Source: Plantibacter sp. ME-Dv--P-122b (GTDB lineage Bacteria; Actinomycetota; Actinomycetes; Actinomycetales; Microbacteriaceae). From it: 64,000 nt of DNA. Every line of letters begins with the position of its first letter. Within the stretch, counting starts at the first letter, position 1. The translations under genes and the position numbers were made by a program. This document shows, in pieces, positions 11,305 through 33,511 of this stretch. The notes beneath the pieces were generated by a model, which was given only the letters and a program-made list of their open reading frames with translations, did no database searches and was not told where the DNA came from. The DNA lies in the NCBI RefSeq assembly GCF_030209375.1, contig NZ_JARVSC010000011.1, positions 124,001 through 188,000 of the forward strand. Reading direction: 5' to 3'.

Positions 11305-12342
11305 TCAGGGCTTGTCGACGACCGACGCACGAGGGTGCGCGGGCTCACGCCGGCGCACGAGCGGGTTCTCGAAGGACTTGAGGAGCACGGCCAGGTTGGT
11401 CATCGCCCGGTCGCGCTCCCGGACGTTCTCCTCCCAGTCGGGGTGGGGTAGCTGTGCCTGCACCTCCGTCGCGACGCGCTCGATGGTCTCGGCGGTCCAC
11501 GGGTTCTCCTGGCCACGCTCCAAGCCCAGTCGAGCGTAGACCGGTCCGATGACCTCGCCGTGGCGGCGCAGGCCGCCACGGGTGTTCAGCTCGCTCGTCG
11601 TGAAGGGACCGATCACCGACCATCGCCGGCCGAGTCCGTCACGGACCAGGACGTCGAGGTCGGCGACGCTGATGACGCCGTCTCGCACGAGACAGTAGGC
11701 CTCCCGCAACAGGGCGCCCTGCAGCCGGTTGAACACGAAGCCCTCGACCTCGTGGTCCAACACGATGGGGGCGATGTCCACCTCCGCCAGCAGGTCGTGG
11801 GCGACGGCGATGGCCTCGGCGGAGGTGAAGTCGGCCGGCACGATCTCCGCGACTCGCAGGAAGTAGGGCGGATTACCGGGGTGCACGACGAGGCAGCGTG
11901 CGCGGCCGGGTAGGTCGGCGGCGAAGGCGGAGGCGACGATGGTGGACGTCGAGCTGGCGAGCACCGCGTGCGGTTCGGTCAATCGGTCCATCTCCCGGAA
12001 CAGGGCGACCTTCACCTCGAGATCCTCGATCACGCTCTCCTGCACGTAGACGACGTCGTGCAATGCTTCGGCGAGTGTCTCGCAGACCAGGACTCGGGCC
12101 AGGACGGCCTCGGGTTCGTCGTCGAGCAGGCCGGCCGTCTTGAGTTCGACGAGTTTCCCGTGCACCGTCGCCCGGGTGGCGTCGCGGGTGGAGGGGTTCG
12201 ACTCGTACACCCGCACGTGCCGTCCGGCGGAGGCGAAGACGACGATCCACGCCGCCCCGATGCTGCCTGCGCCCACGACGGCCACCGACCCGCTCTCATC
12301 GTCGCCGGTTCCAGGAGGGGGGAGAAGAAGGTCCATGCTCAT
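11305..12342 (-). CDS. 3-hydroxyacyl-CoA dehydrogenase-family NAD enzyme (carnitine/gulonate dehydrogenase-like)
   Basis: A 345-residue protein. The NAD-binding motif VAVVGAGSIGAAWIVVFASAGRHVRVYE is followed by the family's STSTI segment and catalytic His (VVHPGNPPYFLRVAEIV), then the C-terminal helical domain (EGFVFNRLQGALLREAYCLV). Single-domain members of this size include 3-hydroxybutyryl-CoA, L-gulonate and L-carnitine dehydrogenases; HPGNPPY rather than HFFNP favours the latter two. It is transcribed away from the VOC gene, across a large inverted repeat at 12416-12469. It could oxidise a 3-hydroxy acid of the pathway encoded to its right. Confidence 0.85.
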   Translation of the reverse strand: MSMDLLLPPPGTGDDESGSVAVVGAGSIGAAWIVVFASAGRHVRVYESNPSTRDATRATVHGKLVELKTAGLLDDEPEAVLARVLVCETLAEALHDVVYVQESVIEDLEVKVALFREMDRLTEPHAVLASSTSTIVASAFAADLPGRARCLVVHPGNPPYFLRVAEIVPADFTSAEAIAVAHDLLAEVDIAPIVLDHEVEGFVFNRLQGALLREAYCLVRDGVISVADLDVLVRDGLGRRWSVIGPFTTSELNTRGGLRRHGEVIGPVYARLGLERGQENPWTAETIERVATEVQAQLPHPDWEENVRERDRAMTNLAVLLKSFENPLVRRREPAHPRASVVDKP

Positions 12343-12415
12343 CCGATCCGTCGATGACCTCTATGTCGGGCGAATCCGTCGTGAATGCCACCCTGCGTCG
12401 AAAGTGTACGTTCTG

Positions 12416-12469
12416 CGAACACACGATCGCAATACGCACCGAATCGTGCGTATTGCGATCAAGTGTTCG
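12416..12469. promoter_or_regulatory. Large inverted repeat in the divergent promoter, probable regulator-binding site
   Basis: Two 24-base arms (12416-12439 and 12446-12469) match at 22 of 24 positions around a six-base centre, CGAATC. Each arm contains the 14-mer ATCGCAATACGCAC or its complement. A related 14-mer, GTGCGAAATGCGAC, occurs at the aminotransferase/aldehyde dehydrogenase promoter. The IclR-type protein encoded at 21288-22091 is the obvious candidate ligand, because PcaU/PobR sites have a similar form. Confidence 0.6.
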
Positions 12470-12558
12470 TTATGCATACGATCATGGGCAACAAACGTAG
12501 CTGTACGCACCCGGGGCATCCGTCCCGTGGAGACCACGATGTCGTGAGGAACCAGACC

Positions 12559-13524
12559 ATGAGTGCACCACCACGTCAGGGCTTCGGCACCCTGCTCGGC
12601 CTCGACCACATCGGGGTCGGGGTGTCGGACATGGCCACCTCCCTCGACTTCTACGCCGAGCTCGGCTTCGTCGACGTCGTGTTCGACTACGAGGGTCCGC
12701 TGCCGGGCCTGTCCCGCGTCGCCGGCCACACGGAGACCGAGGCGCGCGTGGTCTATCTGCGCAGCGGTAACCCGACGGTCCTGGGTCGGTCCGGCATCAA
12801 GCTCGTCCAGCTGACGAACCGCGAGCAGCCGCCGGTACCCGATGGCTTCGCCTACGGTGAACCGGGCATCTGCGAGGTGTGCGTCCACGTCAAGGACTAC
12901 GAACCGTTCCACGAATCGCTCGTCGCCAGCGGGCACCGGAGCCTCATGGAGCCGAACGAGCAGGTGCTCGACCCCTACCGCACGCACTGCGGCCTCTCCT
13001 ACGTCGAGGACCCGGACGGAGCCAAGATCGAGTTCATCGAATGGAGCTCCCTGGAGGCGGGTTGGCCCCACCCCAGTGGCCCACAGGGCGTCAACCACGT
13101 CGCGTTCGGCGTCCGGGACTCCGAACGGACCGAAGCCTTCTACCGGCGACTCGGATTCAGCACGAAGCTCTTCGACATGTCCGGCGTGAACGAGCCGATG
13201 GACCCCTGGTTCCACGCCGTGGGCCGGCAGCCACCGGAGCAACGGATGATGCTCCTCATGAGCCCGCACGGCGGCTCGCTCGAGCCCGTACAGCAGACTC
13301 CGGCCGGGCCCGACCTGCGCGGCGAGTGGGGGCACCTCGGGACCTTCGAGTTCGCGCTGGGCGCCCGCAACCTCGACCTGGCCATCGACTACCTGGCCTC
13401 GATCGACGTGCCGCTGGTCGACGAACCGGCCGAGGTGCAGCTCCCGGATGGTGCGAGCTGGCGGTTTGTACACATCGAGGACCCGGATGGACTGTACGTG
13501 AGTGTGACGGAGGTACGCGCGTGA
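12559..13524 (+). CDS. Two-domain VOC (glyoxalase/extradiol dioxygenase-like) protein
   Basis: A 321-residue protein starting at ATG 12559 behind GAGGAACC. It carries two VOC modules: LLGLDHIGVGVSDMATSLDFYAELGF at the N terminus and GVNHVAFGVRDSERTEAFYRRLGF near residue 178. Candidate metal ligands are the first His of each module and Glu residues in AKIEFIEW and YVSVTE. Two-module VOC proteins include extradiol dioxygenases, 4-hydroxyphenylpyruvate dioxygenase relatives and isomerases. As first gene of the transporter/dehydrogenase operon it probably acts on a pathway intermediate. Its stop overlaps the ABC ATPase GTG start. Confidence 0.8.
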   Translation: MSAPPRQGFGTLLGLDHIGVGVSDMATSLDFYAELGFVDVVFDYEGPLPGLSRVAGHTETEARVVYLRSGNPTVLGRSGIKLVQLTNREQPPVPDGFAYGEPGICEVCVHVKDYEPFHESLVASGHRSLMEPNEQVLDPYRTHCGLSYVEDPDGAKIEFIEWSSLEAGWPHPSGPQGVNHVAFGVRDSERTEAFYRRLGFSTKLFDMSGVNEPMDPWFHAVGRQPPEQRMMLLMSPHGGSLEPVQQTPAGPDLRGEWGHLGTFEFALGARNLDLAIDYLASIDVPLVDEPAEVQLPDGASWRFVHIEDPDGLYVSVTEVRA

Positions 13525-14321
13525 CGGCGACGACGACGAGCCGGATGGAGGCGTCGGCCGATCAGCCGAAGGCACCGATCATCCAGCTGCGGCAGATCAA
13601 CAAGTCCTTCGGGCCCACCCAGGTCCTGTTCGACATCGACCTGGAGGTGCAGCGTGGCGAGCACGTCGTGCTGTTCGGGCCGTCGGGCTCGGGGAAGTCG
13701 ACGGTGCTCCGGAGCATCAACCTGCTCGCCGACCCGGACTCGGGCTCGCTGCAGGTCGACGGGGTCGAGTTCGGTCCGGGGCTGCCGGGTGACACCGGCG
13801 TCAAGCGCGGCGGTCGGCTCGCCTTGCGCCGTCGGGTCGGCATGGTGTTCCAACAGTTCAACCTGTTCCCCCACCTCTGCGCGCTCGACAACGTCGCGCT
13901 CCCGCTCCGCAAGGTGCACCGGCTCAGCAGGGACGCCGCCCGGGAACGTGCCGCGGTCGCCCTGCGTCGGGTCGGCCTCATCGCCCGCGCCGGGCATTAC
14001 CCGGCCGAGTTGTCCGGAGGACAGCAGCAGCGGGTCGCGATCGCTCGGGCCCTCGCGCTCGACCCCGAGGTGATCCTGTTCGACGAGCCCACCTCGGCCC
14101 TCGACCCGGAGCTGGTCGGCGAGGTGCTCAAGACGATGCGCGAGGTGGCTGAGACGGGGATGACGATGGTCGTCGTCACCCACGAGCTCGGCTTCGCGAA
14201 GGAGATCGGCGATCTCAACGTGTTCATGGAGGACGGACGGATCGTGGAGTCCGGACCTCGAGGTTTCTACGAGAACTGCACGAGCGACCGCGCTCGTGAG
14301 TTCCTCAAGGCGGTGATGTGA
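13521..14321 (+). CDS. Polar amino acid ABC transporter ATP-binding protein
   Basis: A 266-residue ATPase of the HisP/GlnQ class, starting with a GTG that overlaps the VOC stop codon (GTGA). Walker A is GPSGSGKST, the Q-loop lies in GMVFQQFNLFPH, the signature is LSGGQQQR and Walker B is ILFDEPTSALDPE, followed by THELGFA. Importers of this class take up glutamine, histidine, arginine, opines and other polar amino acids. It works with the permease at 14321 and the lipoprotein at 15188 and is co-transcribed with the catabolic genes. Confidence 0.93.
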   Translation: MTATTTSRMEASADQPKAPIIQLRQINKSFGPTQVLFDIDLEVQRGEHVVLFGPSGSGKSTVLRSINLLADPDSGSLQVDGVEFGPGLPGDTGVKRGGRLALRRRVGMVFQQFNLFPHLCALDNVALPLRKVHRLSRDAARERAAVALRRVGLIARAGHYPAELSGGQQQRVAIARALALDPEVILFDEPTSALDPELVGEVLKTMREVAETGMTMVVVTHELGFAKEIGDLNVFMEDGRIVESGPRGFYENCTSDRAREFLKAVM

Positions 14322-15097
14322 TGTCGATCGGTGATTACGACTGGAGCCTGATCTGGGACAACCGGGACGCCCTGCTCGGCGGCCTGTGGACGGCGGCGGC
14401 CGTGGCGGTGATCGCGCTCCTGATCTCCGTCGTCTGTGGCCTGCTGTTGGCCGTCCTGCGTTCGGCGCCGAAGCCGTTCAACTGGATCGCGCTCGTGTAC
14501 ATCAACATCTTCCGTGGCGTGCCCGCTCTCGTGAGCGTCATCTGGGTCTACTTCGGACTCGCGCTGTTGCTCGGGGTGCGCTTCTCGGTCTTCCAGGCGG
14601 GTGTCATCGCCCTGTCCTTGCTGTACAGCGCGTTCTTCGCGGAGATCTTCCGCTCGGCCCTCGAGGCCGTGTCGCCCGGACACCGCGAGGCCGGATGGGC
14701 ACTCGGGATGAAGTCGAGCCAGATCTTCTTCTCGGTGACCTTGCCGCAGGCGCTCAAGATCGCGTTGCCGAACATCGGCAGCATGTTCATCGGCATGGTG
14801 AAGGACACGTCGACGTTCACCGTGATCGGCCTGCTGGAGGTGGTGCGCGTCACGCAGAACCTCGTGGCCACGACCTTCCAGCCGTTCGTCCTCTACACAG
14901 CGGCTGCCCTCATCTACGTGCTCGCCGCCTTTGCGATCGACCTGATCTTCCGGCTCATCGAGGGCACCTACGTGCGTCCTCCGCTCGGGGGCGTGGGACG
15001 CATGCTGCGTCGGCGCCAGAACAAGCGGATCGACACGATCGTCGAGCGCGTGAATGCCGGCAGCATCGCCACGTCCACCGTCCCGACGCTGCACTGA
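14321..15097 (+). CDS. Polar amino acid ABC transporter permease
   Basis: A 258-residue protein of the HisM/GlnP family. Its ATG at 14321 overlaps the ATPase stop (TGATG); a GTG three bases upstream is equally possible. It has about five membrane helices and the permease loop motif EAGWALGMKSSQIFFSVTLPQA, which contacts the ATPase. NIFRGVPALVSVIWVYFG is the typical FRGTPLLVQ-like segment. Only one permease gene is present, so it would act as a homodimer. Confidence 0.92.
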   Translation: MSIGDYDWSLIWDNRDALLGGLWTAAAVAVIALLISVVCGLLLAVLRSAPKPFNWIALVYINIFRGVPALVSVIWVYFGLALLLGVRFSVFQAGVIALSLLYSAFFAEIFRSALEAVSPGHREAGWALGMKSSQIFFSVTLPQALKIALPNIGSMFIGMVKDTSTFTVIGLLEVVRVTQNLVATTFQPFVLYTAAALIYVLAAFAIDLIFRLIEGTYVRPPLGGVGRMLRRRQNKRIDTIVERVNAGSIATSTVPTLH

Positions 15098-15187
15098 CCC
15101 GACGCCGTCCTGACCCGAACCCGTCCGGCATCCGCCCGGCACCCGCTGTTCCACCCATCCGTACCCCCACACCGAATGGAGACACCC

Positions 15188-16045
15188 GTGACATCCCGAA
15201 TGCGCACCTCCCTCCGACTTCCCCTGGTGGCGGCCCTCGCCGTGGCAGCACTGGCGCTGTCCGCGTGCAGTGGCGCAGACGCCGGCTCCTCCGGCGCAGA
15301 CGCGTCCGCCGGCGGTGACGATCTCGGTCTCATGACGCCCGGCACCCTCGTCGTCGGTATGAACCTGCAGTACAAGCCCGAGATGTACCTCGACGAGTCC
15401 GGGAAGCCGACCGGGTACGACGTCGACCTCCTCAACGCCATGGCGGACGAACTCGGCGTGAAGCTCGACATCCAGAACCTCGACTTCAACGGCCTCATCC
15501 CGGGGCTGCAGGCGTCGCAGTTCGACGTCGTGTCGGTCGGTCTCGGCGCGACGGACGAGCGGAAGAAGGTCATCGACTTCAGCCGGGGGTACGTCCCCTA
15601 CGCGACCGTCCTCGCGGCGTCGCCGGACTCCAACCTCGGCACCGCGGTCGACTCGTACAACAAGGCGGGTGTGACCATCACGGCGCTTCAGGGGTCGACC
15701 GGCGAGCAGCTCGTCCGCGACACCTTCCCGAACGCGACCGTCGCGACGTTCCCCGACCAGAACGCGGCGCTCCTCGAGGTCGCCACAGGCCGGGCCGACG
15801 CCACGGTCGTCGAGGACTACATCCTCGCCGAGTTCGACCGGAGCAACCCCGACCAGGTGGTGCCACTCGACACCGACGAACCGCTCGCGCTCTACTACGG
15901 TTCCTACGGGGTGCAGAAGGGCAACACCGAACTGACCGAGGCGATCGACGCGTTCCTCTGCTCGGCGCAGCAGGACGGGACACTCGAGGAGCTGTACACC
16001 AAGTGGATGGCGCCGAGTATGCCCGCGATGCCGGAGGGCTGCTGA
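15188..16045 (+). CDS. Amino acid-binding lipoprotein of the ABC importer
   Basis: A 285-residue solute-binding protein. The GTG at 15188 is preferred because GGAG lies five bases upstream; an ATG at 15176 is in frame. The signal peptide ends in a lipobox LSACS (Cys near residue 25). The mature protein starts with GTLVVGMNLQYKPEMYLDESGKPTGYDVDLLNAMA, the family 3 binding-protein signature, and contains LQGSTGEQLV. It delivers the pathway's substrate, probably a polar amino, imino or opine-like acid. Confidence 0.92.
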   Translation: MTSRMRTSLRLPLVAALAVAALALSACSGADAGSSGADASAGGDDLGLMTPGTLVVGMNLQYKPEMYLDESGKPTGYDVDLLNAMADELGVKLDIQNLDFNGLIPGLQASQFDVVSVGLGATDERKKVIDFSRGYVPYATVLAASPDSNLGTAVDSYNKAGVTITALQGSTGEQLVRDTFPNATVATFPDQNAALLEVATGRADATVVEDYILAEFDRSNPDQVVPLDTDEPLALYYGSYGVQKGNTELTEAIDAFLCSAQQDGTLEELYTKWMAPSMPAMPEGC

Positions 16046-16048: not shown

Positions 16049-18745
16049 ATGACCGTCGATGAGCACGCGTTCGACCTCCTGGTCGTCGGCGGTGGACCCG
16101 CCGGGATGGCTGCGGCCGCGTCCGCCGCTGAGCTGGGGCTGGACGTCGTGCTCATCGACGAACGGCCCACGCTCGGTGGGCAGGTCTACAAGCAGCCCGG
16201 GCCGGGCATGTCCGTCACCGACGCCGGTGAGATGGGCAAGCAGTACCGGGCCGGTCGCGCCCTGATCGACGAGGTCGAGGCGAGCCGCGCGACCGTCCTG
16301 CTGCGCACCGCCGTCGTCGACCTCGAGCCGGACGGCGACGGCTGGCTCGCCATGGCACAGACCGACCGATCACCCGTCGCCCCGGTCCGGGCTCGACGGG
16401 TGGTCGTCGCCGCCGGTGCGAACGACCGTCCCGTCGTCTTCCCCGGCTGGACCCTGCCGGGCGTCATGACCGCCGGCGGTCTCCAGACGCTCGCCAAGAC
16501 CCAGTCCTACGTCCCCGGCGAGCGCATCGTCTTCGCCGGTTCGGGCCCCGTCGCGCTCGCGTTCCCCGCGCAGCTGGCGGGCTACGGTGCGAACATCGTC
16601 TCCGCGCTCGAGGCCGGCCCCGCGCCCGGTCCAGGCGACCTCGCACGCATCGCCGCGGTCGCCCCGGGCAACAGCGGACTCCTGCTCGACGCGGCCCGGT
16701 ACCAGGCGGCGCTACTGCGACACCGGATCCCGCTGCGGTATCGCCGGATGGTCATCCGCGCCGAGGGCGACGGGCGCGTCGAACGCGTCGTCCACGCCCG
16801 CGTCGACGACGACTGGCGACCGGTTCCCGGCACCGAGGAGACCGTCGAGGCCGACGTGCTGTGCGTCGGGTACGGCTTCGCACCGTCGACCGAACTCCTG
16901 CGACTCCTGGGGTGCGGATTCGATGTCGACGAGGACCTCGGGGGTGCCGTGGTGCGCCGCGACGACTGGGGTCGCACCGACGCCCCCGGCGTCTACGCGG
17001 TCGGGGACGGGGCCGGGGTTGAGGGCTCTGCCGTCGCCGTCGACGAGGGTCGACTCGCGGCGTTCGCAGCCGCGCTCGACGCGGGACGGATCTCCGAGCG
17101 CACCGCCTCCGACGGGGCCATGCCCCTGCGTCGGCGCATCGGTCGTCGTCGTGCGCTCACGAAGGCCACGCAGCGCATGTACGGCGTCGGGTCCGGCATC
17201 TACGGCCTGGCAGCACCCGACACGGTCGTCTGCCGTTGTGAGGGTGTCACCGCGGCGCAGCTCACGGAGGCCGTCGCACAGGCGCCGGACGTGAGTGCGG
17301 CGAAGGGGGCGACGCGCGCCGGTATGGGCCCATGCCAGGGGCGCATGTGCGGCAGACACATCGCCGCCATGGTCGCCGCCCAGCGCGGTGTCGCAACGGA
17401 CCAGGTCGAGGTCGCCACTCCGCGGATGCCGGTCCGGCCGACCGCGATCGGCGCGATCGCGGACGAACGCGTCGCCGACCCGGGACTCTTCAAGGCCAAG
17501 GACGGCACCCCCGTCGAGCCGGCCCGGACCGACCTGACCTCGCCGAACGACGGGTGGCTGGACGAGGGCCCCGTCACCGACACCGACGTCCTGGTGGTCG
17601 GTGGGGGTATCGCCGGCGCGGCAGTCGCGTACTACCTCGCCAAGGAGGGCGTCGAGGTCGAACTGCTGGAGCGCGGGGAGCTCAACCGGGAGGCCTCCGG
17701 CACGAACGCGGGGAGCTTCCACTTCCAGCTCGCGATCCATCAGCTCTCCGGACAGGGGACGGGCGCGGACCGCGACCGTCTGCTGAGCGAGGCGCGCGCG
17801 AGCGTGGAGGCGTACGGCCTGTGGAAGGACCTCGGCGCCGAACTCGACGCCGACCTGGGCTTGCATCAGACGGGCGGTTGGATGGTCGCGGAGACCGAGG
17901 AGCAGGTCCGTCTGCTGTTCGAGAAGCACGAGCTCGAGGCGGCAGCCGGTATCGAGACCGAGGTCGTGACCGGTGACGAGCTGCGTCGCCGTGCGCCCTA
18001 CTTCTCCGACCGCGTGCTCGGGGCGACCTATTGCGGGCTCGAGGGGCACGCCAACCCGCTCGTCGCCGCCCCGGTCTACGCGCAGCGGGCCGCGGAACTC
18101 GGCGCGCGCATCCGGACCCGAGCCGAGGTCTTCAGCGTGGAGGTGTCCGACGGACCCGCCGCGCACCGCTTCACCGTCCGGACCAACCACGGCACGATCC
18201 GAGCCCGTCGGCTCGTGAACTGCGCCGGCGGTTGGGCCGGCGAGTTGGCCGACATGGTGGGTCTGCGGTTCCCCATCCGTCGTGAGGGGTTGCACGTCAA
18301 CGTCACCGAGGCGCGCGACCCGCTGCTCCCCTCGATGGTGCAGCACATCGGGCGCCGACTCACGCTCAAGCAGTCGCATCACGGCTCGTTCATCATCGGT
18401 GGAGGCTGGCCGACATCGGCGACGGGCTATCCCCGGCGGTTCCCCACCACCTGGCAGAGCGCCGCGGGGAACCTCCGCGTCGCCCTCGACGTCGTGCCGG
18501 CCCTCGAGGACGTGCGCGTCGTGCGGACCTGGTCGGGCGTCATCGCCTTCACCGACGACCTCTCGCCGATCGTCGGCGAGTCACGGCGCGTCCCTGGGTA
18601 CTTCGCCTGCGTGTCCACCACCGGCTTCACCTTCACCCCGATCTTCGCCAGGCAGCTCGCGGAGCAGATCGTCACCGGCGGCTCCTCGTCGCCCTTCCCC
18701 GAGCGGTACTCGCTCGACCGCGCGCCGGCCCCCGCCTCCGCGTGA
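16049..18745 (+). CDS. Fused FAD-dependent amine dehydrogenase, OoxA-OoxB/HcnB-HcnC type
   Basis: An 898-residue natural fusion. Residues 1 to about 480 form a pyridine-nucleotide-disulfide-like FAD subunit (VVGGGPAGMAAAASAAELGLDV, then GSGPVALAFPAQLAGYGANI) with a BFD-like Fe-S segment: Cys395-x-Cys397 and Cys429-x4-Cys434. From about residue 510 a second FAD domain of the DadA/glycine-oxidase type begins (DVLVVGGGIAGAAVAYYLAK). In opine, hydrogen-cyanide and D-hydroxyproline dehydrogenases these are separate alpha and beta subunits, with a third small [2Fe-2S] subunit, encoded here at 19724. The complex should oxidise the C-N bond of an imported imino or secondary amino acid. It follows the binding-protein gene by three bases. 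Confidence 0.88.
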   Translation: MTVDEHAFDLLVVGGGPAGMAAAASAAELGLDVVLIDERPTLGGQVYKQPGPGMSVTDAGEMGKQYRAGRALIDEVEASRATVLLRTAVVDLEPDGDGWLAMAQTDRSPVAPVRARRVVVAAGANDRPVVFPGWTLPGVMTAGGLQTLAKTQSYVPGERIVFAGSGPVALAFPAQLAGYGANIVSALEAGPAPGPGDLARIAAVAPGNSGLLLDAARYQAALLRHRIPLRYRRMVIRAEGDGRVERVVHARVDDDWRPVPGTEETVEADVLCVGYGFAPSTELLRLLGCGFDVDEDLGGAVVRRDDWGRTDAPGVYAVGDGAGVEGSAVAVDEGRLAAFAAALDAGRISERTASDGAMPLRRRIGRRRALTKATQRMYGVGSGIYGLAAPDTVVCRCEGVTAAQLTEAVAQAPDVSAAKGATRAGMGPCQGRMCGRHIAAMVAAQRGVATDQVEVATPRMPVRPTAIGAIADERVADPGLFKAKDGTPVEPARTDLTSPNDGWLDEGPVTDTDVLVVGGGIAGAAVAYYLAKEGVEVELLERGELNREASGTNAGSFHFQLAIHQLSGQGTGADRDRLLSEARASVEAYGLWKDLGAELDADLGLHQTGGWMVAETEEQVRLLFEKHELEAAAGIETEVVTGDELRRRAPYFSDRVLGATYCGLEGHANPLVAAPVYAQRAAELGARIRTRAEVFSVEVSDGPAAHRFTVRTNHGTIRARRLVNCAGGWAGELADMVGLRFPIRREGLHVNVTEARDPLLPSMVQHIGRRLTLKQSHHGSFIIGGGWPTSATGYPRRFPTTWQSAAGNLRVALDVVPALEDVRVVRTWSGVIAFTDDLSPIVGESRRVPGYFACVSTTGFTFTPIFARQLAEQIVTGGSSSPFPERYSLDRAPAPASA

Positions 18746-19727: not shown

Positions 19728-20047
19728 CCGGCAAGCGGCTCCGCGGGCACGGCCTCGAGCGGGGGACCCGGGTCGACTTCACCATCGACGGGCAGGCCGC
19801 CCGGGCGTACGAGGGTGAGTCCGTGTCGGCCGCCGTCATGGCGGCACGCGATCTCGGTCTGCGCCGGACCGAGCACGATCAGCCGCGGGGGTACTTCTGC
19901 GGTATGGGCGTGTGTTTCGAGTGCGTGATGGTGGTCGACGGAGTCCCGAACACGCGGAGCTGTGTGACCTGGGTCAGCGAGGGCATGGTCGTCGAGCATC
20001 AGGACGGTGCAGGACCGGCCGGAGCACGCGACGCGCCGTCCCACTGA
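19724..20047 (+). CDS. Small [2Fe-2S] subunit of the amine dehydrogenase, OoxC/HcnA-like
   Basis: A 107-residue protein starting at ATG 19724, overlapping the DapA-like gene's stop. The cluster motif YFCGMGVCFECVMVVDG followed by TRSCVTWV supplies four cysteines in the ferredoxin-like pattern Cx4Cx2C...C. VDFTIDGQAARAYEGESVSAAVMA is the characteristic N terminus of the small gamma subunit of opine and hydroxyproline dehydrogenases. Its presence confirms that the 898-residue protein is part of a three-component enzyme with two components fused. Confidence 0.9.
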   Translation: MTGKRLRGHGLERGTRVDFTIDGQAARAYEGESVSAAVMAARDLGLRRTEHDQPRGYFCGMGVCFECVMVVDGVPNTRSCVTWVSEGMVVEHQDGAGPAGARDAPSH

Positions 20048-23700: not shown

Positions 23701-23734
23701 GTGCGAAATGCGACCATTAGTGCGCGATGCGAAC
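23701..23734. promoter_or_regulatory. Tandem operator-like motifs between aldehyde dehydrogenase and aminotransferase genes
   Basis: GTGCGAAATGCGAC at 23701 and GTGCGCGATGCGAAC at 23720 form a direct repeat with a 19-base step. They are close to the 14-mers inside the large inverted repeat at 12416-12469 (11 of 14 identical for the best pair). They lie 15 to 49 bases upstream of the aminotransferase start, suitable for control by the IclR protein. Confidence 0.55.
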
Positions 23735-26258: not shown

Positions 26259-26309
26259 CGACCGCCACCACCCGAACCAGACCGACGACCGATGGAACAG
26301 GAGACCACC

Positions 26310-27710
26310 GTGACCCGTGAGGCACACCCGTACATGGCCAACTCGGCAGCCGAGAGCCGACAGGCGCTCCTCGACGCCGTGGGGGTCGAGGACCCCGACG
26401 AACTGTTCGCACAGATTCCCGCCCACCACCGCTCGGACGACCGCATCGAGCACCGCCCCGGCATCCGCTCCGAGTACGAGCTGCGGCGGCTCCTGGAGGA
26501 CCGTCTCCGCGGTGGTGTCTCCACCGAGAGCCACATCTCCTTCCTCGGCGGCGGATACTGGAACCACTACGTCCCGGCGCTGTGTGACGAGATCGCCGCA
26601 CGACCGGAGATCTCCACCTCCGTCTGGGGCACCCCGAGCTCGGACCACGGACGCAACCAGGCCTGGTTCGAGTTCACCTCGCAGCTGGGCGCGCTCCTCG
26701 AGCTCGAGTTCGTCGGTCTCCCCGTCTACAGCTGGGGATGCGCAGCCGGACACGCCCTCCGCATGGCGGCCCGGCTGACCGGTCGCTCCGTCGTCGTCGT
26801 GCCGGCCAACCTCGACCGTGAGCGCCGACTCGTGATCGAGACCTACTGCGGCTCGCGCGAACTCGGCGGAGCTCTCGAGCTCCGGACCGTACCGGTCGAC
26901 GCCGCCACCGGGGCGATCGCGCCGGACGCGCTGCAGGCCGTCCTCGACGAGGGCGTCGCCGCGGTCTACGTCGAGACGCCGAACTCGTGGGGCGTCGTGG
27001 AGGACGGTATCGCCGGGCTCATCGAGCGCACGCACGCGGTCGGTGCCGAGGCGATCGTCGGGGTCGACCCGATCTCGCTCGGCGTGCTCGCTCCGCCCGT
27101 CCGGTTCGGGGCGGACATCGTCGTCGGCTCCCTGCAGCCGCTCGGCGTGCACCTGAACGCCGGTGGCGGCGTCGGTGGATTCATCGCCTCGCGCGACGAG
27201 GAGCGCTACGCCCGCGAGTTCCCGACGCTGCAGGTCAGCCTCTCGCCCACCATCGCCGACGGTGAGCGGGCGTTCGGGATGACCCTCTTCGGGCAGAGCT
27301 CCTACGGTTCCCGCGAACTCGGCAACGACTGGACCGGCAACTCGGTCTACCTGTGGGCCGTGCGAGCCGCCGTGTACCTGTCGCTCATGGGACCGCAGGG
27401 TATGCGCGAGCTGGCCGAGACGGTCGGTGCGAACGCACGTGCGACCGCAGGGCTGCTCGCCGCCGTTCCCGGAGTGACGGTCCGGAACGCCGATCGGATC
27501 TTCAAGGAGTTCGTGGTCGACTTCTCGGCCACCGGACGGTCGGTGGACGAGATCAACCGGGCGCTGCTCGAGCGGGGCATCCTGGGCGGTCACGATTTGA
27601 GCGGTGAAGCGGACGGGGTCGACGGCTGCGCACTCTACTGCGTCACCGAGACCACGACCGAGGACGATGTACGCGCCCTCGTCGGCGCCCTGACGGAGGT
27701 GCTCGCATGA
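26310..27710 (+). CDS. GcvPA-like subunit of a PLP-dependent enzyme
   Basis: A 466-residue protein related to the first half of glycine decarboxylase (P-protein). The GTG at 26310 has AGGAG six bases upstream and is preferred to the ATG at 26292. HISFLGGGYWNHYVPALCDEIA and the PTSSDHGRNQAWFEFTSQLGALLELEF-like region (here WGTPSSDHGRNQAWFEF) are P-protein features, but the normal YTPYQAE and following G-M-x-x-A-N block is replaced by GLPVYSWGCAAGHALRM. ADIVVGSLQPLGVHLNAGGG matches the GQSLG segment. No lysine for PLP is expected in this half. It partners the next gene. Confidence 0.75.
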   Translation: MTREAHPYMANSAAESRQALLDAVGVEDPDELFAQIPAHHRSDDRIEHRPGIRSEYELRRLLEDRLRGGVSTESHISFLGGGYWNHYVPALCDEIAARPEISTSVWGTPSSDHGRNQAWFEFTSQLGALLELEFVGLPVYSWGCAAGHALRMAARLTGRSVVVVPANLDRERRLVIETYCGSRELGGALELRTVPVDAATGAIAPDALQAVLDEGVAAVYVETPNSWGVVEDGIAGLIERTHAVGAEAIVGVDPISLGVLAPPVRFGADIVVGSLQPLGVHLNAGGGVGGFIASRDEERYAREFPTLQVSLSPTIADGERAFGMTLFGQSSYGSRELGNDWTGNSVYLWAVRAAVYLSLMGPQGMRELAETVGANARATAGLLAAVPGVTVRNADRIFKEFVVDFSATGRSVDEINRALLERGILGGHDLSGEADGVDGCALYCVTETTTEDDVRALVGALTEVLA

Positions 27711-27727
27711 ACCGGGAAGGTGATCGG

Positions 27728-29275
27728 ATGAGCCAGGAGACCACCCGTTCGAGTCGGGTCCGCCGCTACCACGCCGCGTCGTGGGACGAGGGCGTGGTGT
27801 ACGAGCTCGGTGCACCGGGACGGCGCGGCGTCATTCCGCCGACGTCGTGGGCGCCGGCCGACGACGGCCCGACGTTCGCCGAGGGGCTGCGCCGCGACGG
27901 CGTCGCCGACCTCCCCGAGCTGGCGGAGTACGAGGTGCGCCGACACTTCACCCACCTCGCGCAGCAGACGCTCGGGATGATGGGCATCAGCCTCTTCGGC
28001 ACCTGCACGATGAAGCACAGCCCGACGGTGAACGAACAGCTCGCCGCGCGACCCGAGGTCGCCGCCGTGCACCCGCGGCAGGACGCCTCGACGATGCAGG
28101 GACTGCTGGGTATCGTGCACGACCTGGAAGCCGAGCTCTGCAACCTCTCCGGGATGTCTGCGTTCAGCTTCCAGCCCGGTGGCGGGGCCGACGCGGCGTA
28201 CCTGAACATGGTCATCACGCGGGCCCACTTCGAGGCGAAGGGTGAGCTGGGGCAGCGCCGTCAGGTCATCACCACGGCCCAGGCGCACCCGTGCAACCCG
28301 GCTACGGCGAAGGCCGCGGGTTTCGAGGTCGTGACCCTGCCGGTGGAGGAGGACGGCTACCCCTCGCTGGAGGCCTTCCGGTCGGTCATCGGCCCGCAGA
28401 CCGCTGCGATCGTGCTGAACAACCCCGACGACATGGGGGTCTACAACCCGTTCATCACCGAGGTCATCGACGCGGTCCACGCCGAAGGTGGCCTGGCCTT
28501 CTACGACAGTGCCAACTTCAACGGCGTCATGACGAGGCTGCGCGCACGGGACCTGGGTTTCGACGCGTGCATGTACATGCTGCACAAGACCTTCGGGGCA
28601 CCGAAGGGCGGGAACGGGCCGTCGGTGGGTGCCTACGGGTGTTCGGATGAGCTGGCACCGTTCCTGCCCGGCCCGCGGGTCGAACGCCACGACGACGCCT
28701 GTGTGTTCATCGAGCCCGAGCAGAGCGTCGGTCGCGTCCGCGAGTTCTTCGGCAACGTCCCACAGCTCCTCAAGGCGTACTCGTGGACCCGGGCCATGGG
28801 CACCGACGGACTGCGCGAGGCGGCCGACCTCTCGGTCCTCGCGAACAACTACATGGAGCACCGGCTCATGGCGATCCCCGGCGTGACCATGTCGTTCGCG
28901 GGGAAGGCGCTGCCCCGGCTCGAGATGACCCGGTACTCCCTCGAGGAGTACGCGGCCGAGACCGGGCTGTCGACCGTGGACGTGCAGAACCGGATGACGG
29001 ACTTCGGCATCGACGCCTACTGGCTCGCGCATGAACCGTGGATCGTACCGGAGCCGTTCACCCCGGAGGCCGGCGAGATGTGGTCGAAGGAGGACCTCGA
29101 CGAGTGGATCGACGTCCTCGAGCACGTCCTCGAGGAGGGCCGGAACGACCCGGAACTCGTCCGGACGGCACCGCATCGTCAGGTCGTCGCCCAGATCGAC
29201 GGTTCCGGGCTGGACGACCCCGAGCGGTGGGCCACGACCTGGGCCGCCTATCGGCGCAAGCATGCCACGTCGTGA
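27728..29275 (+). CDS. GcvPB-like PLP-binding subunit
   Basis: A 515-residue protein related to the second half of the glycine cleavage P-protein. GISLFGTCTMKHSPTVNE, FSFQPGGGADAAYLNM and a PLP-lysine motif MYMLHKTFGAPKGGNGPS are clear. The start at ATG 27728 follows GGAAGG; an ATG at 27707 overlapping the previous stop is the alternative. No GcvH or GcvT gene is present in the window, so ordinary glycine cleavage is unlikely. A decarboxylase, or another carbon-bond reaction on a pathway amino acid, is more plausible. Family clear, reaction unknown. Confidence 0.78.
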   Translation: MSQETTRSSRVRRYHAASWDEGVVYELGAPGRRGVIPPTSWAPADDGPTFAEGLRRDGVADLPELAEYEVRRHFTHLAQQTLGMMGISLFGTCTMKHSPTVNEQLAARPEVAAVHPRQDASTMQGLLGIVHDLEAELCNLSGMSAFSFQPGGGADAAYLNMVITRAHFEAKGELGQRRQVITTAQAHPCNPATAKAAGFEVVTLPVEEDGYPSLEAFRSVIGPQTAAIVLNNPDDMGVYNPFITEVIDAVHAEGGLAFYDSANFNGVMTRLRARDLGFDACMYMLHKTFGAPKGGNGPSVGAYGCSDELAPFLPGPRVERHDDACVFIEPEQSVGRVREFFGNVPQLLKAYSWTRAMGTDGLREAADLSVLANNYMEHRLMAIPGVTMSFAGKALPRLEMTRYSLEEYAAETGLSTVDVQNRMTDFGIDAYWLAHEPWIVPEPFTPEAGEMWSKEDLDEWIDVLEHVLEEGRNDPELVRTAPHRQVVAQIDGSGLDDPERWATTWAAYRRKHATS

Positions 29276-29317
29276 CGCCGCATCGGACCACCGACGGACA
29301 CTGAGGAAGGAACACGC

Positions 29318-30079
29318 GTGATCGACAAACGAGTCGCCTCGACGGCGGACGCCGTCGAGGGTGTCCGTGACGGGGACACGGTGATGATCGGCGGCTTCGG
29401 CCGCGCGGGACAACCGGTCGAACTCATCGACGCGCTCATCGAGCAGGGCGCGTCCGAGCTGACCATCGTCAACAACAACGCGGGGAACGGCGACCACGGC
29501 CTGGCCGCCCTGCTCGACCGCGGACGGGTGCGGAAGATCATCTGCTCCTTCCCACGACAGAGCGACTCCTGGGTCTTCGACCGGCTGTACCGGGCGGGCG
29601 AGCTCGAACTCGAGCTCGTCCCGCAGGGCAACCTCGCAGAACGCATCCGCGCCGCCGGTGCCGGCATCGGCGGCTTCTACACCCCGACCGGGGTTGGCAC
29701 GACGCTGGCCGAGGGGAAGGAGACCCGCGAATTCGACGGGCGGACCCATGCGCTGGAACTCCCCATCCACGCGGACTTCGCCCTCGTGAGCGCCTACCGC
29801 GCCGACCGCTGGGGCAACCTCGTCTACCGCGAGACCGCTCGCAACTTCGGTCCGATCATGTGCACCGCCGCGCGGACGACGGTCGTCCAGGTCGACGCCG
29901 TGGTGGAGCTCGGCGACCTCGACCCGGAGGCCGTCGTCACGCCGGGCCTCTTCGTGGACCGGGTCGTCGAGACCGGTGAGCGCCGCTGGTTGCGCGACGG
30001 CGCCTTCGTCGGCGGGGTCGACCTCGCCGGTAGCCCGCTGGTGCCCGACGAACCGTCCGACGAGGAGGACGCCGCATGA
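29318..30079 (+). CDS. pcaI: 3-oxoadipate CoA-transferase, alpha subunit
   Basis: A 253-residue protein. VMIGGFGRAGQPVELIDALIEQG, LTIVNNNAGNGDHGLAALL, KIICSFPRQSDSWVFD and VPQGNLAERIRAAGAGIGGFYTPTG follow PcaI/CatI closely throughout. The enzyme moves CoA from succinyl-CoA to 3-oxoadipate, or to a near homologue. It lies in an operon with the beta subunit (four-base overlap) and a thiolase, as in beta-ketoadipate pathways, although no ring-cleaving dioxygenase of the protocatechuate or catechol type is in the window. Confidence 0.9.
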   Translation: MIDKRVASTADAVEGVRDGDTVMIGGFGRAGQPVELIDALIEQGASELTIVNNNAGNGDHGLAALLDRGRVRKIICSFPRQSDSWVFDRLYRAGELELELVPQGNLAERIRAAGAGIGGFYTPTGVGTTLAEGKETREFDGRTHALELPIHADFALVSAYRADRWGNLVYRETARNFGPIMCTAARTTVVQVDAVVELGDLDPEAVVTPGLFVDRVVETGERRWLRDGAFVGGVDLAGSPLVPDEPSDEEDAA

Positions 30080-30768
30080 CCACCCGCATCGACCGGAACG
30101 CGCTCGCCGCGCGCATCGCTGCCGACATCGAGGACGGTGCGATCGTCAACCTCGGCATCGGAGCGCCGACGCTCGTCGCCGAGCACCTGCCGGAGGGCGC
30201 GGAGATCATCCTCCACACGGAGAACGGGATGCTCGGCATGGGGGCCGCACCCCGCCCCGGCGCGCTCGACCCGGACCTCATCAACGCCGGCAAGCAGGCC
30301 GTCACCACGGTGGCGGGCGCCTCGTTCTTCCATCACGCCGACTCCTTCGCCATGATGCGCGGCGGGCACCTCGACCTCTGCGTCCTCGGCGCCTACCAGG
30401 TGAGTCAGGAGGGCGACCTCGCCAACTGGTCCACCGGTGGCGAGGGTTCCATCCCCTCGGTGGGTGGGGCGATGGACCTCGCCATCGGGGCGAAGCGGGT
30501 CGTCGTCATGACCGACCTGCTGACCCGGTCCGGCGAGTCGAAACTCGTCGCCGAGTGCGCCTACCCGCTCACCGGGGTCGGCTGTGTGTCGCGGGTCTAC
30601 ACCGACCACGCCGTGTTCGACGTCACACCGGAGGGGTTCGCGGTGGTGGAGACGTTCGGAGACACGACCGTCGACGAGCTGCGGGCCCTCACCGGGCTCG
30701 CGTTGACCGATGCGACCACCGGTACCGCGCCCGCGGCCGAGCAGACCCTGGAACGGAGTGCAGGATGA
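30076..30768 (+). CDS. pcaJ: 3-oxoadipate CoA-transferase, beta subunit
   Basis: A 230-residue protein. IVNLGIGAPTLVAEHLPEG and ILHTENGMLGMG, which carries the catalytic Glu that forms the CoA thioester, are intact. LCVLGAYQVSQEGDLANWS and SIPSVGGAMDLAIGAKRV are PcaJ features. It forms the heteromer with the preceding alpha subunit. Stop and start overlap with both neighbours, showing one translationally coupled unit. Confidence 0.92.
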   Translation: MTTRIDRNALAARIAADIEDGAIVNLGIGAPTLVAEHLPEGAEIILHTENGMLGMGAAPRPGALDPDLINAGKQAVTTVAGASFFHHADSFAMMRGGHLDLCVLGAYQVSQEGDLANWSTGGEGSIPSVGGAMDLAIGAKRVVVMTDLLTRSGESKLVAECAYPLTGVGCVSRVYTDHAVFDVTPEGFAVVETFGDTTVDELRALTGLALTDATTGTAPAAEQTLERSAG

Positions 30769-31940
30769 CCGAGACCTACCTCTACGACGCGGTCAGGACA
30801 CCGTTCGGGCGGTCCGGGGGAGCGCTCGCTGGTGTCCGACCCGACGATCTGGCCGCCGTGGTGCTCCGCGCGATCGTCGACCGGACCGGACTCGACCCGG
30901 CTCGCATCGACGACGTCGTGCTCGGGGACGCGAACCAGGCGGGTGAGGACAACCGGGACGTCGCGCGGTTCGCCGCCCTGCTCGCCGGGTTCCCGACCTC
31001 GGTGACCGGTGTGACCGTCAACCGGCTCTGCGCCTCCTCGATGGACGCTGTCATCCAGGGGTCACGGGCGATCGCTGCCGGCGACGCCGACATCGTGCTG
31101 GCCGGCGGCGTCGAGTCTATGAGTCGTGCGCCCTACGTGCTCGAGAAGTCGGCCAGGGGTTTCCCCAGCATCGGCAATCCGACGCTCTGGAACACCTCGA
31201 TCGGCTGGCGGATGGTGAACCCCGCGTTGCCCGAGGCGTGGACGATCTCGAACGGTGAGGCCGCGGAGAAGGTTGCACAGGAGCGCGGTGTCACGCGGGA
31301 GCAGCAGGACGCCTATGCGGTCCGTTCGCACCGGCTGGCTGCGGCCGCCTGGGCCGACGGGGTCTTCGACGGCGAGGTGGTCCCGGTCCCCGGGGTCGAG
31401 CTCGGGCGGGACGAGGGGATCCGCGACGACACGACGGTGGAGCGGCTCGCGGGGCTCCGTCCACTGTTCCCCCGTGACGGCCACGGCACCGTGACCGCGG
31501 GCAACTCCTCCTCCATCAACGACGGCGCCTCGGCCGTGTTGCTCGCCAGAGAAGGCGCCGTCGACGGCGAACCGCTCGCCCGGATCGCCGGACGAGCGGC
31601 GCACGGCGTCGATCCGGACGACTTCCCGATCGCGCCCGTGGAGGCCGCGAACAAGGCCCTCGCCCGGGCGGGGCGTCATTGGTCCGACGTCGACGTCGTC
31701 GAGCTGAACGAGGCGTTCGCCTCCCAGACCCTCGCCTGCCTCGCGGGATGGCCGGACCTCGATCCCGAGCGGCTCAACCCGCGCGGTGGTGCACTCGCCA
31801 TCGGTCATCCCCTGGGGGCGTCCGGTGGCCGGGTGATCGGGCGGGCCGCGCACGAGCTCGTGCGGCGTGGCGGCGGGGTCGCCGTGGCGACGGTGTGCAT
31901 CGGTGTCGGTCAGGCACTGGCGGTGGTCCTCGAGCGCTGA
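30765..31940 (+). CDS. PcaF-like thiolase (3-oxoadipyl-CoA thiolase family)
   Basis: A 391-residue thiolase. VVLGDANQAGEDNRDVARFAALLAG is characteristic of PcaF/PaaJ. The acyl-accepting Cys lies in VNRLCASSMDAV, where PcaF usually has CGSGLDA, so the active-site neighbourhood is unusual. The His (GGALAIGHPLGASGG) and second Cys (TVCIGVGQAL) are normal. It would split 3-oxoadipyl-CoA to succinyl-CoA and acetyl-CoA. The changed residues next to the Cys may mean a related 3-oxoacyl-CoA is used. Last gene of the plus-strand operon. Confidence 0.88.
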   Translation: MTETYLYDAVRTPFGRSGGALAGVRPDDLAAVVLRAIVDRTGLDPARIDDVVLGDANQAGEDNRDVARFAALLAGFPTSVTGVTVNRLCASSMDAVIQGSRAIAAGDADIVLAGGVESMSRAPYVLEKSARGFPSIGNPTLWNTSIGWRMVNPALPEAWTISNGEAAEKVAQERGVTREQQDAYAVRSHRLAAAAWADGVFDGEVVPVPGVELGRDEGIRDDTTVERLAGLRPLFPRDGHGTVTAGNSSSINDGASAVLLAREGAVDGEPLARIAGRAAHGVDPDDFPIAPVEAANKALARAGRHWSDVDVVELNEAFASQTLACLAGWPDLDPERLNPRGGALAIGHPLGASGGRVIGRAAHELVRRGGGVAVATVCIGVGQALAVVLER

Positions 31941-31952
31941 GTGCCTGCCCGA

Positions 31953-32735
31953 TCAGCGGATGTAGGAGGCGCCGTTCAGGTCGAGCGTGGCCCCGGTGAG
32001 GCTCGGTGTACGGTCGGTCGCGAGGAAGGCGGCCAGCTCGGCGATCTCCGCGGCGGCGACGTGGCGTCCCATCGTCAGGCCCTCGGCGACGGAGCTCTGC
32101 TGCTCGGTGGAGAGCCCCTGCGTCCCCATGCCGGTGTCGACGACGCCGGGCGCGATCGTGTACACGCGGACCCCGCGGCGTGCGACGTCGCGGGCGAGCG
32201 TCTGGGCGAAGTTGCGGACGGCGGCCTTCGACGCGGCGTACGCGGACGCCTCGGGGAGACGCGAGCCCTGCTCGGCGGCCCAGCTGGAGATGACGATGAT
32301 GGAGCCGCCAGAGCGTTCGGCGAGGTCGTGGGCCGCCTGGCGCATGAGGGCGGCCGGGGCGACGGCGTTGACCGTCATCGACGCCTCCCACCCGTCGTCC
32401 CATTCCGCTACCGGCCCCTGCAGTGGTGTCCGCATCATGACCGCCGCGTTGAGCACGACCGTGTCGACGGGCCGGATCGCGTTCGCCCGATCCCACAGCT
32501 CCCGAGCCGATGCGCCGGAGGTGATGTCCGCCTCGAGCAGGGCGTGGCGGTCCGGGGCCGCGGCTTCCAGGACGGCGCGTGCTTCGGCCGCGCGACTGCG
32601 ATAGGTGCCGACGACGAAGGCGCCTTCGCGGCCGAGGACCTTGGCGAGGGCCGAACCGATGCCGCCGGACACCCCGGTGACGAGCACCGAACGCCCGGCG
32701 AGCGACGGGGTCGGACCGCCGTTCACGACACTCAC
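31953..32735 (-). CDS. SDR-family oxidoreductase
   Basis: A 260-residue classical short-chain dehydrogenase starting with a GTG at 32735 that overlaps the neighbouring SDR's stop (GTGA). The cofactor motif is VTGVSGGIGSAL, the NAG-type segment reads VLNAAVM and the catalytic Ser and Tyr-x3-Lys are in IVISSWA and AYAASKAAV. TYRSRA after strand 2 suggests NADP preference. It should interconvert a hydroxyl and a carbonyl on a pathway intermediate. It is convergent with the thiolase gene. Confidence 0.9.
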   Translation of the reverse strand: MSVVNGGPTPSLAGRSVLVTGVSGGIGSALAKVLGREGAFVVGTYRSRAAEARAVLEAAAPDRHALLEADITSGASARELWDRANAIRPVDTVVLNAAVMMRTPLQGPVAEWDDGWEASMTVNAVAPAALMRQAAHDLAERSGGSIIVISSWAAEQGSRLPEASAYAASKAAVRNFAQTLARDVARRGVRVYTIAPGVVDTGMGTQGLSTEQQSSVAEGLTMGRHVAAAEIAELAAFLATDRTPSLTGATLDLNGASYIR

Positions 32736-33511
32736 AGCAGGCCCCCGTCGACGGGGATCAGCTGTCCGGTGATGGCCGCTGCCTGGGCGGACGAGAGGAA
32801 CAGGGCGGTGTCGGCGACGTCGCCCGGTGTCGCGAGTCGGCGGAGGGCGGTCTGCCGGGCGGCGGCCTCCAGCGCCTCCCCGAGGGCCGGACCGCCGCGC
32901 CCTGCGCGGTCGCTCATGCGGCCGCGCAGGGCGTCGGTCGCCACGGGGCCCGGGGCGACGGCGTTCACCCGGATGCCGCGCGGGCCGAGCGACATCGCCA
33001 TCGAGCGCACGGCGCCCAGGACGGCGTGTTTGCTCGCGGCGTAGGCGAGGAGGTTGGGGTCGCCGCGCCAGGAGTTCAGCGAGCCGATCGCGACGATGGA
33101 CGAGCCGTGCGGCATCGACTCGGCGACGGACTTGACCGTCACGACGAAGCCGCGCACGTTCACGGCCATCGTCTGGTCGAACATGTCGAGGTCGACGTCG
33201 GCCGGTCGGTGCCAGGGCGGCACGATGCCGGCGGCGGCGATCACGCCGTCGAAGGGTCCGTGTTCGGCCTGTGTCGAACGCATCGCCTCGACGACGGCCG
33301 GCTCGTCCGTCACGTCCAGCTGCCGGGAGGGCCACGGCGCATCGTCCGCCGCCGCGGCCAGGTCGACGATGACGCCGTCCGCCCCGCCGGCCGACAGTCG
33401 GGCCACGATCTCGGCACCGATCCCCTGGGCGCCTCCGGTGACGAGGAACCGTCGCCCGGAGAACCCGCTCGAAGACGCTGTCTGTCCACTGCCCACGGTG
33501 TCGCTCCTCAT
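32732..33511 (-). CDS. SDR-family oxidoreductase
   Basis: A 259-residue classical short-chain dehydrogenase: VTGGAQGIGAEI for cofactor, VIVDLAAAAD (Asp, suggesting NAD) after strand 2, AAGIVPPWHRP in place of NNAG, and a YAASKHAV catalytic pair. Its stop overlaps the start of the next SDR, so the two are co-expressed. Their common upstream region contains TTGACG and a 14-mer distantly like the shared pathway operator (33554-33567). Substrate unknown. Confidence 0.9.
   Translation of the reverse strand: MRSDTVGSGQTASSSGFSGRRFLVTGGAQGIGAEIVARLSAGGADGVIVDLAAAADDAPWPSRQLDVTDEPAVVEAMRSTQAEHGPFDGVIAAAGIVPPWHRPADVDLDMFDQTMAVNVRGFVVTVKSVAESMPHGSSIVAIGSLNSWRGDPNLLAYAASKHAVLGAVRSMAMSLGPRGIRVNAVAPGPVATDALRGRMSDRAGRGGPALGEALEAAARQTALRRLATPGDVADTALFLSSAQAAAITGQLIPVDGGLL

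Follow-up and report, generated by a model that had tools for sequence, protein, structure and literature searches.

The window, a 64-kb stretch of the 3.92-Mb genome of Plantibacter sp. ME-Dv--P-122b (contig 13, positions 124001–188000), carries at 11305–33511 a catabolic cluster of 20 genes arranged in five apparent operons (Table 1). By the gene content of related loci, the heart of the cluster is an AcoX-like protein together with a pair resembling GcvPA and GcvPB, the two subunits of the glycine cleavage P-protein, and not PcaI, PcaJ and PcaF. Family assignment with NCBIfam and Pfam recovered every gene class named in the original prediction for this DNA and added a VOC protein that was absent from its list. 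The more specific names fared less well: the families are present, but the thiolase and the IclR regulator score below the PcaF and PcaR/PcaU/PobR cut-offs, respectively, and the coenzyme A (CoA)-transferase models for PcaI and PcaJ cover ScoAB equally.

Five operons and a shared promoter repeat

Within the cluster, 12 of the 15 same-strand neighbour pairs are separated by −4 to 42 bases. Gaps of 73–79 bases lie between the genes for the succinate-semialdehyde-dehydrogenase (SSADH)-type enzyme, the IclR regulator and the Old Yellow Enzyme (OYE), and also between the permease and the binding protein of the ATP-binding cassette (ABC) importer; these gaps may possibly hold inner promoters. The fused OoxAB protein begins with a pyridine-nucleotide-disulphide fold with a BFD [2Fe-2S] domain, followed by a DAO fold. 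The DapA-family protein carries the sequences VAIKD and YNWPHGTG; we take the lysine of the first to be the Schiff-base lysine and the second, with its tyrosine, to be an active-site motif.

Comparison of the promoter regions revealed a 15-bp half-site, GTTCGCANNNCGCAC, which at up to one mismatch has five matches in the window, all within two promoter regions of the cluster. The striking trait of these half-sites is their arrangement in pairs with a 19-bp period, and those at 12425–12439 and 12446–12460 form a perfect inverted repeat. A 34-bp tandem pattern, allowed up to three mismatches, gave six matches at three places of the cluster (two stretches being counted on both strands), with 0.06 expected and none of 100 shuffles reaching six. 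This pattern was composed after all three places were known, which makes its statistics flattering. The whole genome contains three matches at up to two mismatches, namely two of the cluster sites and one within an open reading frame on contig 12.

An operator scan of 15 loci besides the window found the double site at the aminotransferase promoter again in L022 and L031 (Microbacterium rhizomatis), and one site in L030 (Leucobacter soli). Because the double site was limited to L022 and L031, the motif is shown for close kin only, and the regulon argument stands on this kept double site and its scarcity in the genome, not on the tandem statistics. By position, the three repeat places could drive all five operons. 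The half-site resembles GTTCG-N5-CGCAC, which we take to be the operator of PcaR and PobR, a likeness that fits the nearest family of the IclR regulator; the latter falls narrowly below the subfamily cut-off. The cluster is probably one catabolic unit, jointly regulated and directed at an amino or imino acid, as had been predicted, and a sequence-level check of co-regulation agreed in that three promoters have the operator-like repeat in common.

Table 1 Operons, genes and repeat regions of the cluster, with window coordinates and profile scores
Feature	Position	Strand	Evidence or remark
Operon 1: HADlam		−	
Operon 2: VOC-ABC importer-OoxAB-DapA-OoxC		+	
Operon 3: SSADH-IclR-OYE		−	
Operon 4: aminotransferase-AcoX-GcvPA-GcvPB-CoA-transferase A/B-thiolase		+	
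Operon 5: SDR2-SDR1		−	
HADlam, lambda-crystallin / L-gulonate 3-dehydrogenase-type 3-hydroxyacid dehydrogenase	11308..12342	−	NF004783 382.4 bits, cut-off 347; PDB lambda-crystallin 2.3e-50
Operator region 1, between HADlam and VOC	12406..12479		three half-sites at up to one mismatch and a weaker fourth
Two-domain VOC protein, heads importer operon	12559..13521	+	weak NCBIfam matches only
Polar-amino-acid-type ABC importer ATPase	13521..14318	+	GlnQ model 293.9 bits, below cut-off 379
ABC importer permease	14318..15094	+	TIGR01726 80.2 bits, cut-off 42.2
ABC importer substrate-binding protein	15176..16042	+	TIGR01096 126.9 bits, below cut-off 256
OoxAB, fused OoxA-OoxB-type flavin adenine dinucleotide (FAD) dehydrogenase	16049..18742	+	Pfam Pyr_redox_2, Fer2_BFD, DAO; nearest PDB sarcosine oxidase beta 3.3e-28
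DapA-family enzyme	18783..19724	+	PF00701 137.7 bits
OoxC-type [2Fe-2S] subunit	19724..20044	+	PF13510 90.4 bits
OYE family reductase	20129..21208	−	PF00724 224.5 bits
IclR-family regulator near PcaR/PcaU/PobR	21291..22091	−	TIGR02431 276.4 bits, cut-off 284.75
SSADH-type aldehyde dehydrogenase	22168..23628	−	TIGR01780 699.5 bits, cut-off 646.35
Operator region 2, SSADH / aminotransferase gap	23701..23734	−	tandem half-sites, 19-bp period, 15 bases 5' of aminotransferase start
Class-III (omega) aminotransferase	23750..25117	+	NF004767 579.3 bits, cut-off 517
AcoX-like protein, NAD-kinase/DAGK superfamily, GGDGT motif	25125..26255	+	PF01513 56.1 bits
GcvPA-like subunit	26292..27707	+	NF001696 383.8 bits, cut-off 364
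GcvPB-like subunit	27707..29272	+	NF003346 476.5 bits, cut-off 441
PcaI/ScoA-type CoA-transferase subunit A	29318..30076	+	TIGR02429 364.2 bits, cut-off 128.5
PcaJ/ScoB-type CoA-transferase subunit B	30076..30765	+	TIGR02428 289 bits, cut-off 243.55
Thiolase, PcaF nearest named kin but below PcaF cut-off	30765..31937	+	TIGR02430 432.6 bits, cut-off 597; TIGR01930 424.3 bits, cut-off 240.55
SDR family dehydrogenase 1 (SDR1)	31956..32726	−	NCBIfam
SDR family dehydrogenase 2 (SDR2)	32735..33511	−	NCBIfam
Operator region 3, before SDR2	33534..33567	−	two weaker half-sites, 19-bp period, 22 bases 5' of SDR2 start

The AcoX and GcvPA/GcvPB-like core

An alignment of 13 GcvPB-like proteins, used as the query against genome contigs, found at least 570 relatives. 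For the best 80 of these, of which 24 lie in loci shorter than 19 kb so that absences are overcounted, gene presence was scored by tblastn (E 1e-15). GcvPA was present in 79 loci and AcoX in 77, followed by OoxAB (54), the ABC ATPase (48), SDR1 (47), HADlam (45), IclR (44), DapA (40), the aminotransferase (38), SDR2 (32), the permease (25), the binding protein (24), OYE (21) and SSADH (20); rarest were OoxC (14), VOC (5), PcaF (2), PcaI (1) and PcaJ (1). A separate cluster table, spanning 96 loci (L015–L109 and the window stretch), gives slightly different numbers. At least four of the eight other core families (HADlam, OoxAB, DapA, SDR1, IclR, aminotransferase, OYE and SSADH) were found in 49 of the 80 loci, and each of eight control loci has none or one. 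Among 396 genomes of the order, searches recovered AcoX in 10 (E 1e-20) and a member of the GcvPB-like clade in 11 (E 1e-70). Ten genomes share the two genes, which by their coordinates lie side by side in every case.

The core recurs in actinobacteria and proteobacteria, with carriers as distant as Acidimicrobiia, Rhodobacteraceae and Pseudomonas. In G362 (locus L022), which belongs to the same family but a different genus, 15 genes stand in the same order at 55–85% identity (permease-binding protein-OoxAB-DapA-OoxC-OYE-IclR-SSADH-aminotransferase-AcoX-GcvPA-GcvPB-PcaI-PcaJ-PcaF); the stretch compared starts at the permease, and 2.8 kb of other genes precede PcaI. Smaller clusters place the triad of AcoX, GcvPA and GcvPB near an acyl-CoA synthetase (L017, L020, L097 and L106), in L017 and L020 with SDRs and an APC permease too, and Sphingomonas has it with zinc alcohol dehydrogenases. 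Seven actinobacterial genomes (L023–L029) carry a sister form, GcvPA-GcvPB-AcoX-SDR; several of these lie beside what by eye appear to be GH42 beta-galactosidases and sugar transporters. A plasmid of the haloarchaeon Natronosalvus halobius encodes GcvPA (48% identity) and GcvPB (45%). At a distance of 20–55 kb from the pair it carries OYE (46%) and AcoX (37%), together with a CoA-transferase pair, polyamine-type ABC transporters and genes for DapA-family, SDR and aminotransferase proteins. The transporters near the triad are of amino-acid type in the window, of sugar, tripartite and dipeptide types on plasmids and of polyamine type in the archaeon, suggesting that the substrates of other clusters may differ. 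Some database entries seem to be mislabelled. Records titled Bifidobacterium breve (metagenome bins L047 and L053) have GcvPB-like genes that group with the Nanopelagicales bin L055, that of L053 being nearly identical, and the titles are probably wrong; and PLSDB lists a haloarchaeal cupin gene (L135, 27455–27838), at 100% identity, as the tetracycline-inactivation gene tet(51), seemingly spuriously.

We compared the pair with the canonical two-subunit P-protein (PDB 1WYT, presumably the Thermus enzyme). A tree of 103 GcvPB sequences was built quickly, with no bootstrapping, and has several long canonical branches. In it, 96 clade members are set off from seven canonical sequences by a branch of 2.2 changes per column (support 100); the nearest relatives of the window's protein are from Microbacteriaceae. 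GcvH was found in none of 95 clade loci and GcvT as one weak 26% match, whereas five of six control loci had both. Like the canonical enzyme, the pair has two subunits, and the GcvPB-like protein keeps K294, H293, D267 and H194 in the alignment (numbering from the 27707 start); we take K294, which follows H293, to be the lysine that binds pyridoxal phosphate (PLP). Unlike it, the pair forms a separate clade in GcvH-free loci that nearly all hold AcoX, and the two groups agree in 59 and differ in 29 of the 88 columns that both conserve. Examples of the differences, with the canonical residue in brackets, are A164 (Glu), Q192 (Ser), P195 (Gly), C196 (Thr), D242 (Thr), N247 (Glu), K300 (His), D436 (His) and W439 (Thr). 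Among the 29 columns is a Glu of all eight aligned canonical sequences that is Ala in 99% of the main group. This main group leaves out the seven sisters L023–L029, in which some of the 29 columns retain the canonical residue; their positions 300 and 436 are still His, suggesting that some changes came in steps.

The GcvPA/GcvPB-like pair is thus probably not an ordinary glycine decarboxylase. All seven plasmid records of the clade that were examined label the pair glycine dehydrogenase, a name that is probably wrong for the whole clade, given how far the pair departs from the glycine system in its phylogeny, gene neighbours and residues. It could still be a true glycine decarboxylase that handles glycine released by the pathway and borrows the canonical GcvH and GcvT. 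Such a role would agree with the passing of both curated NCBIfam models, with the retained PLP lysine and with the kinship of the OoxB half to sarcosine and glycine oxidases. GcvH is also encoded elsewhere in all 41 clade-bearing genomes searched, with none lacking it, so that the pair may borrow the H-protein of the cell; the genomes for this search and for the thiolase search below (32) were hand-picked; both sets drew on 30 of the 80 loci, mostly isolates, and were completed with 11 and 2 G-labelled genomes, respectively. However, the Plantibacter genome already encodes a full-length GcvP with GcvH beside it, and the GcvH-free loci, the long separate branch and the 29 changed columns all speak against this role, which we regard as unlikely. 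In Deinococcus sp. QL22 (L113, 8538–13559), GcvPA-GcvPB stands with a MOSC protein and a class-III aminotransferase, with no GcvT or GcvH nearby, perhaps as another repurposed P-protein.

We know of no activity for AcoX, and a search at E 0.01 found no relative of solved structure. Its GGDGT motif is invariant in 37 of 37 aligned sequences. According to PMC10943186, AcoX is critical for acetoin dehydrogenase activity, and the protein is also treated in PMC9676059. As in acoXABC of acetoin catabolism, the window has, by family assignment, an NAD-kinase-superfamily protein beside an enzyme with actual or expected carbon–carbon cleavage; unlike there, its partner is a PLP-type pair, and no aco or acetoin dehydrogenase genes were among the families found in the cluster. 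AcoX, as judged from gene neighbourhoods, adjoins two unrelated enzymes, one of them carbon–carbon-cleaving. Two further observations concern AcoX genes: in Peptoclostridium acidaminophilum (L132, 5992–8068), one lies directly before a gene of class I/II aminotransferase fold, another AcoX beside a PLP enzyme in a stretch with no GcvPA or GcvPB, and the AcoX matches in G362, G105 and G119 (L006, L007 and L010) are listed with one or two TGA stops within the aligned stretch, which may extend beyond the true gene end.

The two ends of the pathway

The original prediction called a 3-oxoadipate end well supported. It would have a C6 or C7 amino acid degraded to 3-oxoadipate, which PcaIJ and PcaF would convert to succinyl-CoA and acetyl-CoA. 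Several features of the window do recall this lower branch of the beta-ketoadipate pathway: the CoA-transferase and thiolase genes follow aminotransferase-AcoX-GcvPA-GcvPB at gaps of −4 to 42 bases, PcaF is the nearest named thiolase, the IclR regulator is nearest PcaR/PcaU/PobR, and the half-site is close to the operator named above. However, the thiolase is 164 bits short of the PcaF cut-off. A thiolase above it was found in 16 of the 32 clade-bearing genomes searched and in none of the other 16, the window's own included. TIGR02428 and TIGR02429 do not separate PcaIJ from ScoAB, PcaIJF was not found in the two closest loci (L030 and L031) nor in most of the 80, and the conserved triad is given no step. 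The example offered, deamination at both ends of a C6 beta-amino acid, likewise leaves AcoX and the GcvPA/GcvPB-like pair without a job. The claim of good support thus did not hold up, and we consider this route improbable, with 3-oxoadipate itself one possible candidate end product.

As had been stated, no pca/cat-type ring-cleavage gene was among the families found in the cluster; extradiol dioxygenases were not searched for. A check for an aromatic pathway elsewhere found little: the whole genome gave one partial intradiol dioxygenase match, outside the window (31.7 bits against 27.3, covering 24–97 of 182), extradiol families being again outside the search. The VOC superfamily includes extradiol dioxygenases, and the VOC protein of the cluster, together with this scope of the search, leaves some room for ring cleavage.

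We can fairly infer a beta-keto acid as the pathway end from the gene content. PcaIJ-type CoA-transferase genes occur in the window and in G362, and Sphingomonas baiyangensis (L091) has them next to AcoX; window-related thiolases occur in G362, L039 and L048. A second, different CoA-transferase-like pair is found in 12 actinobacterial loci of the 80; its archaeal relatives (48–49% identity), on the haloarchaeal plasmid, are annotated as CoA-transferase and malonate decarboxylase subunit alpha. Because this pair recurs, a beta-keto acid end is better supported than 3-oxoadipate. Another CoA-transferase pair and thiolase (51–54% and 39% identical to those of the window) lie on contig 9 of the same genome (L126, 7125–9648), next to a gene that by eye is IclR-like.

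At its start, the cluster resembles hydroxyproline catabolism and the opine oxidases OoxABC. The hydroxyproline gene set comprises D-hydroxyproline dehydrogenase, a DapA-family deaminase and ketoglutarate-semialdehyde dehydrogenase, and the window has an OoxABC-type dehydrogenase, a DapA-family enzyme, an aldehyde dehydrogenase and an amino-acid importer, so its first half might be a hydroxyproline pathway that lies by chance beside the other operon. However, no proline-racemase-family epimerase was found in the cluster. The only match in the genome lies on contig 7, where its neighbours are a further OoxA/OoxB/OoxC, DapA and aldehyde dehydrogenase set, 28–36% identical to that of the window. 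The window's aldehyde dehydrogenase is far below the ketoglutarate-semialdehyde cut-off (382.8 versus 770) and passes that for SSADH. The triad, aminotransferase, SDRs and CoA-transferase are extra, and the repeat is present at promoters of both halves. We therefore rejected the hydroxyproline pathway as very improbable, since the genome has its own set on contig 7; the window set would instead be a diverged parallel that probably acts on another imino or secondary-amine acid. The presence of three dehydrogenases for hydroxyls suggests that this compound is hydroxylated. Breakdown of ephedrine-type amino-alcohols, imino-sugars or calystegines was weighed from chemistry only, a literature search having given no gene set for comparison. 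That the operons are adjacent but unrelated is hardly credible: neighbours do differ between genomes, and PcaIJF and VOC are rare in related loci, but the shared repeat, the order kept in G362 and the recurrent core speak against grouping by chance.

A proposed route and its meaning

We propose that the cluster is one catabolic regulon under a PcaR-like IclR regulator that degrades a hydroxylated secondary-amine or imino acid via the triad and ends in a beta-keto acid, a reading that we judge evenly poised between right and wrong. The importer would bring in the compound, and the OoxA-OoxB/OoxC dehydrogenase would oxidize its C–N bond to an imine. The DapA-family enzyme could act on the resulting 2-oxo acid by deamination, dehydration or aldol cleavage, as in the related set of hydroxyproline breakdown, while the lambda-crystallin-type dehydrogenase and the SDRs would oxidize hydroxyls, one of them yielding an alpha-amino ketone or alpha-amino beta-keto acid. 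The amine of this product would be bound on PLP by the GcvPA/GcvPB-like enzyme, which would break the neighbouring carbon–carbon bond. AcoX would be its needed partner, as is reported for acetoin dehydrogenase in PMC10943186. A second, terminal amine would be removed by the class-III aminotransferase and the semialdehyde dehydrogenase, after which the CoA-transferase would activate the remaining beta-keto acid and the thiolase split it into acetyl-CoA and a second acyl-CoA.

More broadly, AcoX and the GcvPA/GcvPB-like pair may form a new PLP-dependent carbon–carbon-cleaving system whose substrates would be alpha-amino ketones or alpha-amino beta-keto acids and not glycine. It would work without a dedicated H- or T-protein and would have entered several catabolic routes in bacteria and haloarchaea; we advance this tentatively, at somewhat short of an even chance. 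In 11 of the 80 loci all eight other core families are missing, which suggests that the triad serves further pathways too and counts against the proposed route.

Other observations likewise weigh against the proposed route. The strict half-site is only mildly enriched in the window (5 matches versus 2.52 expected; 5 reached in 7 of 100 shuffles), the looser GTTCGN5CGCAC shows no enrichment there (17 versus 15.74), and in 12 other loci scanned the half-site is single, scattered or absent. Because the 80 loci are the top-scoring of at least 570, their counts lean towards window-like clusters. In G362, no SDR gene was seen 3' of the thiolase up to the contig end. The DapA-family enzymes fall into three active-site types, which argues for differing substrates, and the second CoA-transferase-like pair matches the CoA-transferase model weakly (one subunit at 54 bits versus the cut-off of 128.5, the other not at all). 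The NCBIfam scores of the GcvPA/GcvPB-like pair and the ubiquity of GcvH in the genomes searched belong here as well.

Outside the cluster, by eye, the window also holds a sortase-like gene with two long surface proteins that have cell-wall-anchor-like ends (46977–53936), resembling a Gram-positive pilus or adhesin cluster, and an ABC importer of iron or cobalamin type with ATPase, binding protein and permease (2137–5211).

In agreement with the original prediction, we found no description of this gene set in the literature, by title or abstract for the gene-name searches. The enzymes are all of known families, but their combination with a widespread PLP-dependent core is apparently undescribed, and the cluster points to an undescribed degradation route for a nitrogen compound. 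If the proposed system exists, AcoX would be the shared partner of two unrelated cleavage enzymes, the thiamine pyrophosphate-dependent acetoin dehydrogenase and a PLP enzyme, and this second steady partner makes the role of AcoX testable.

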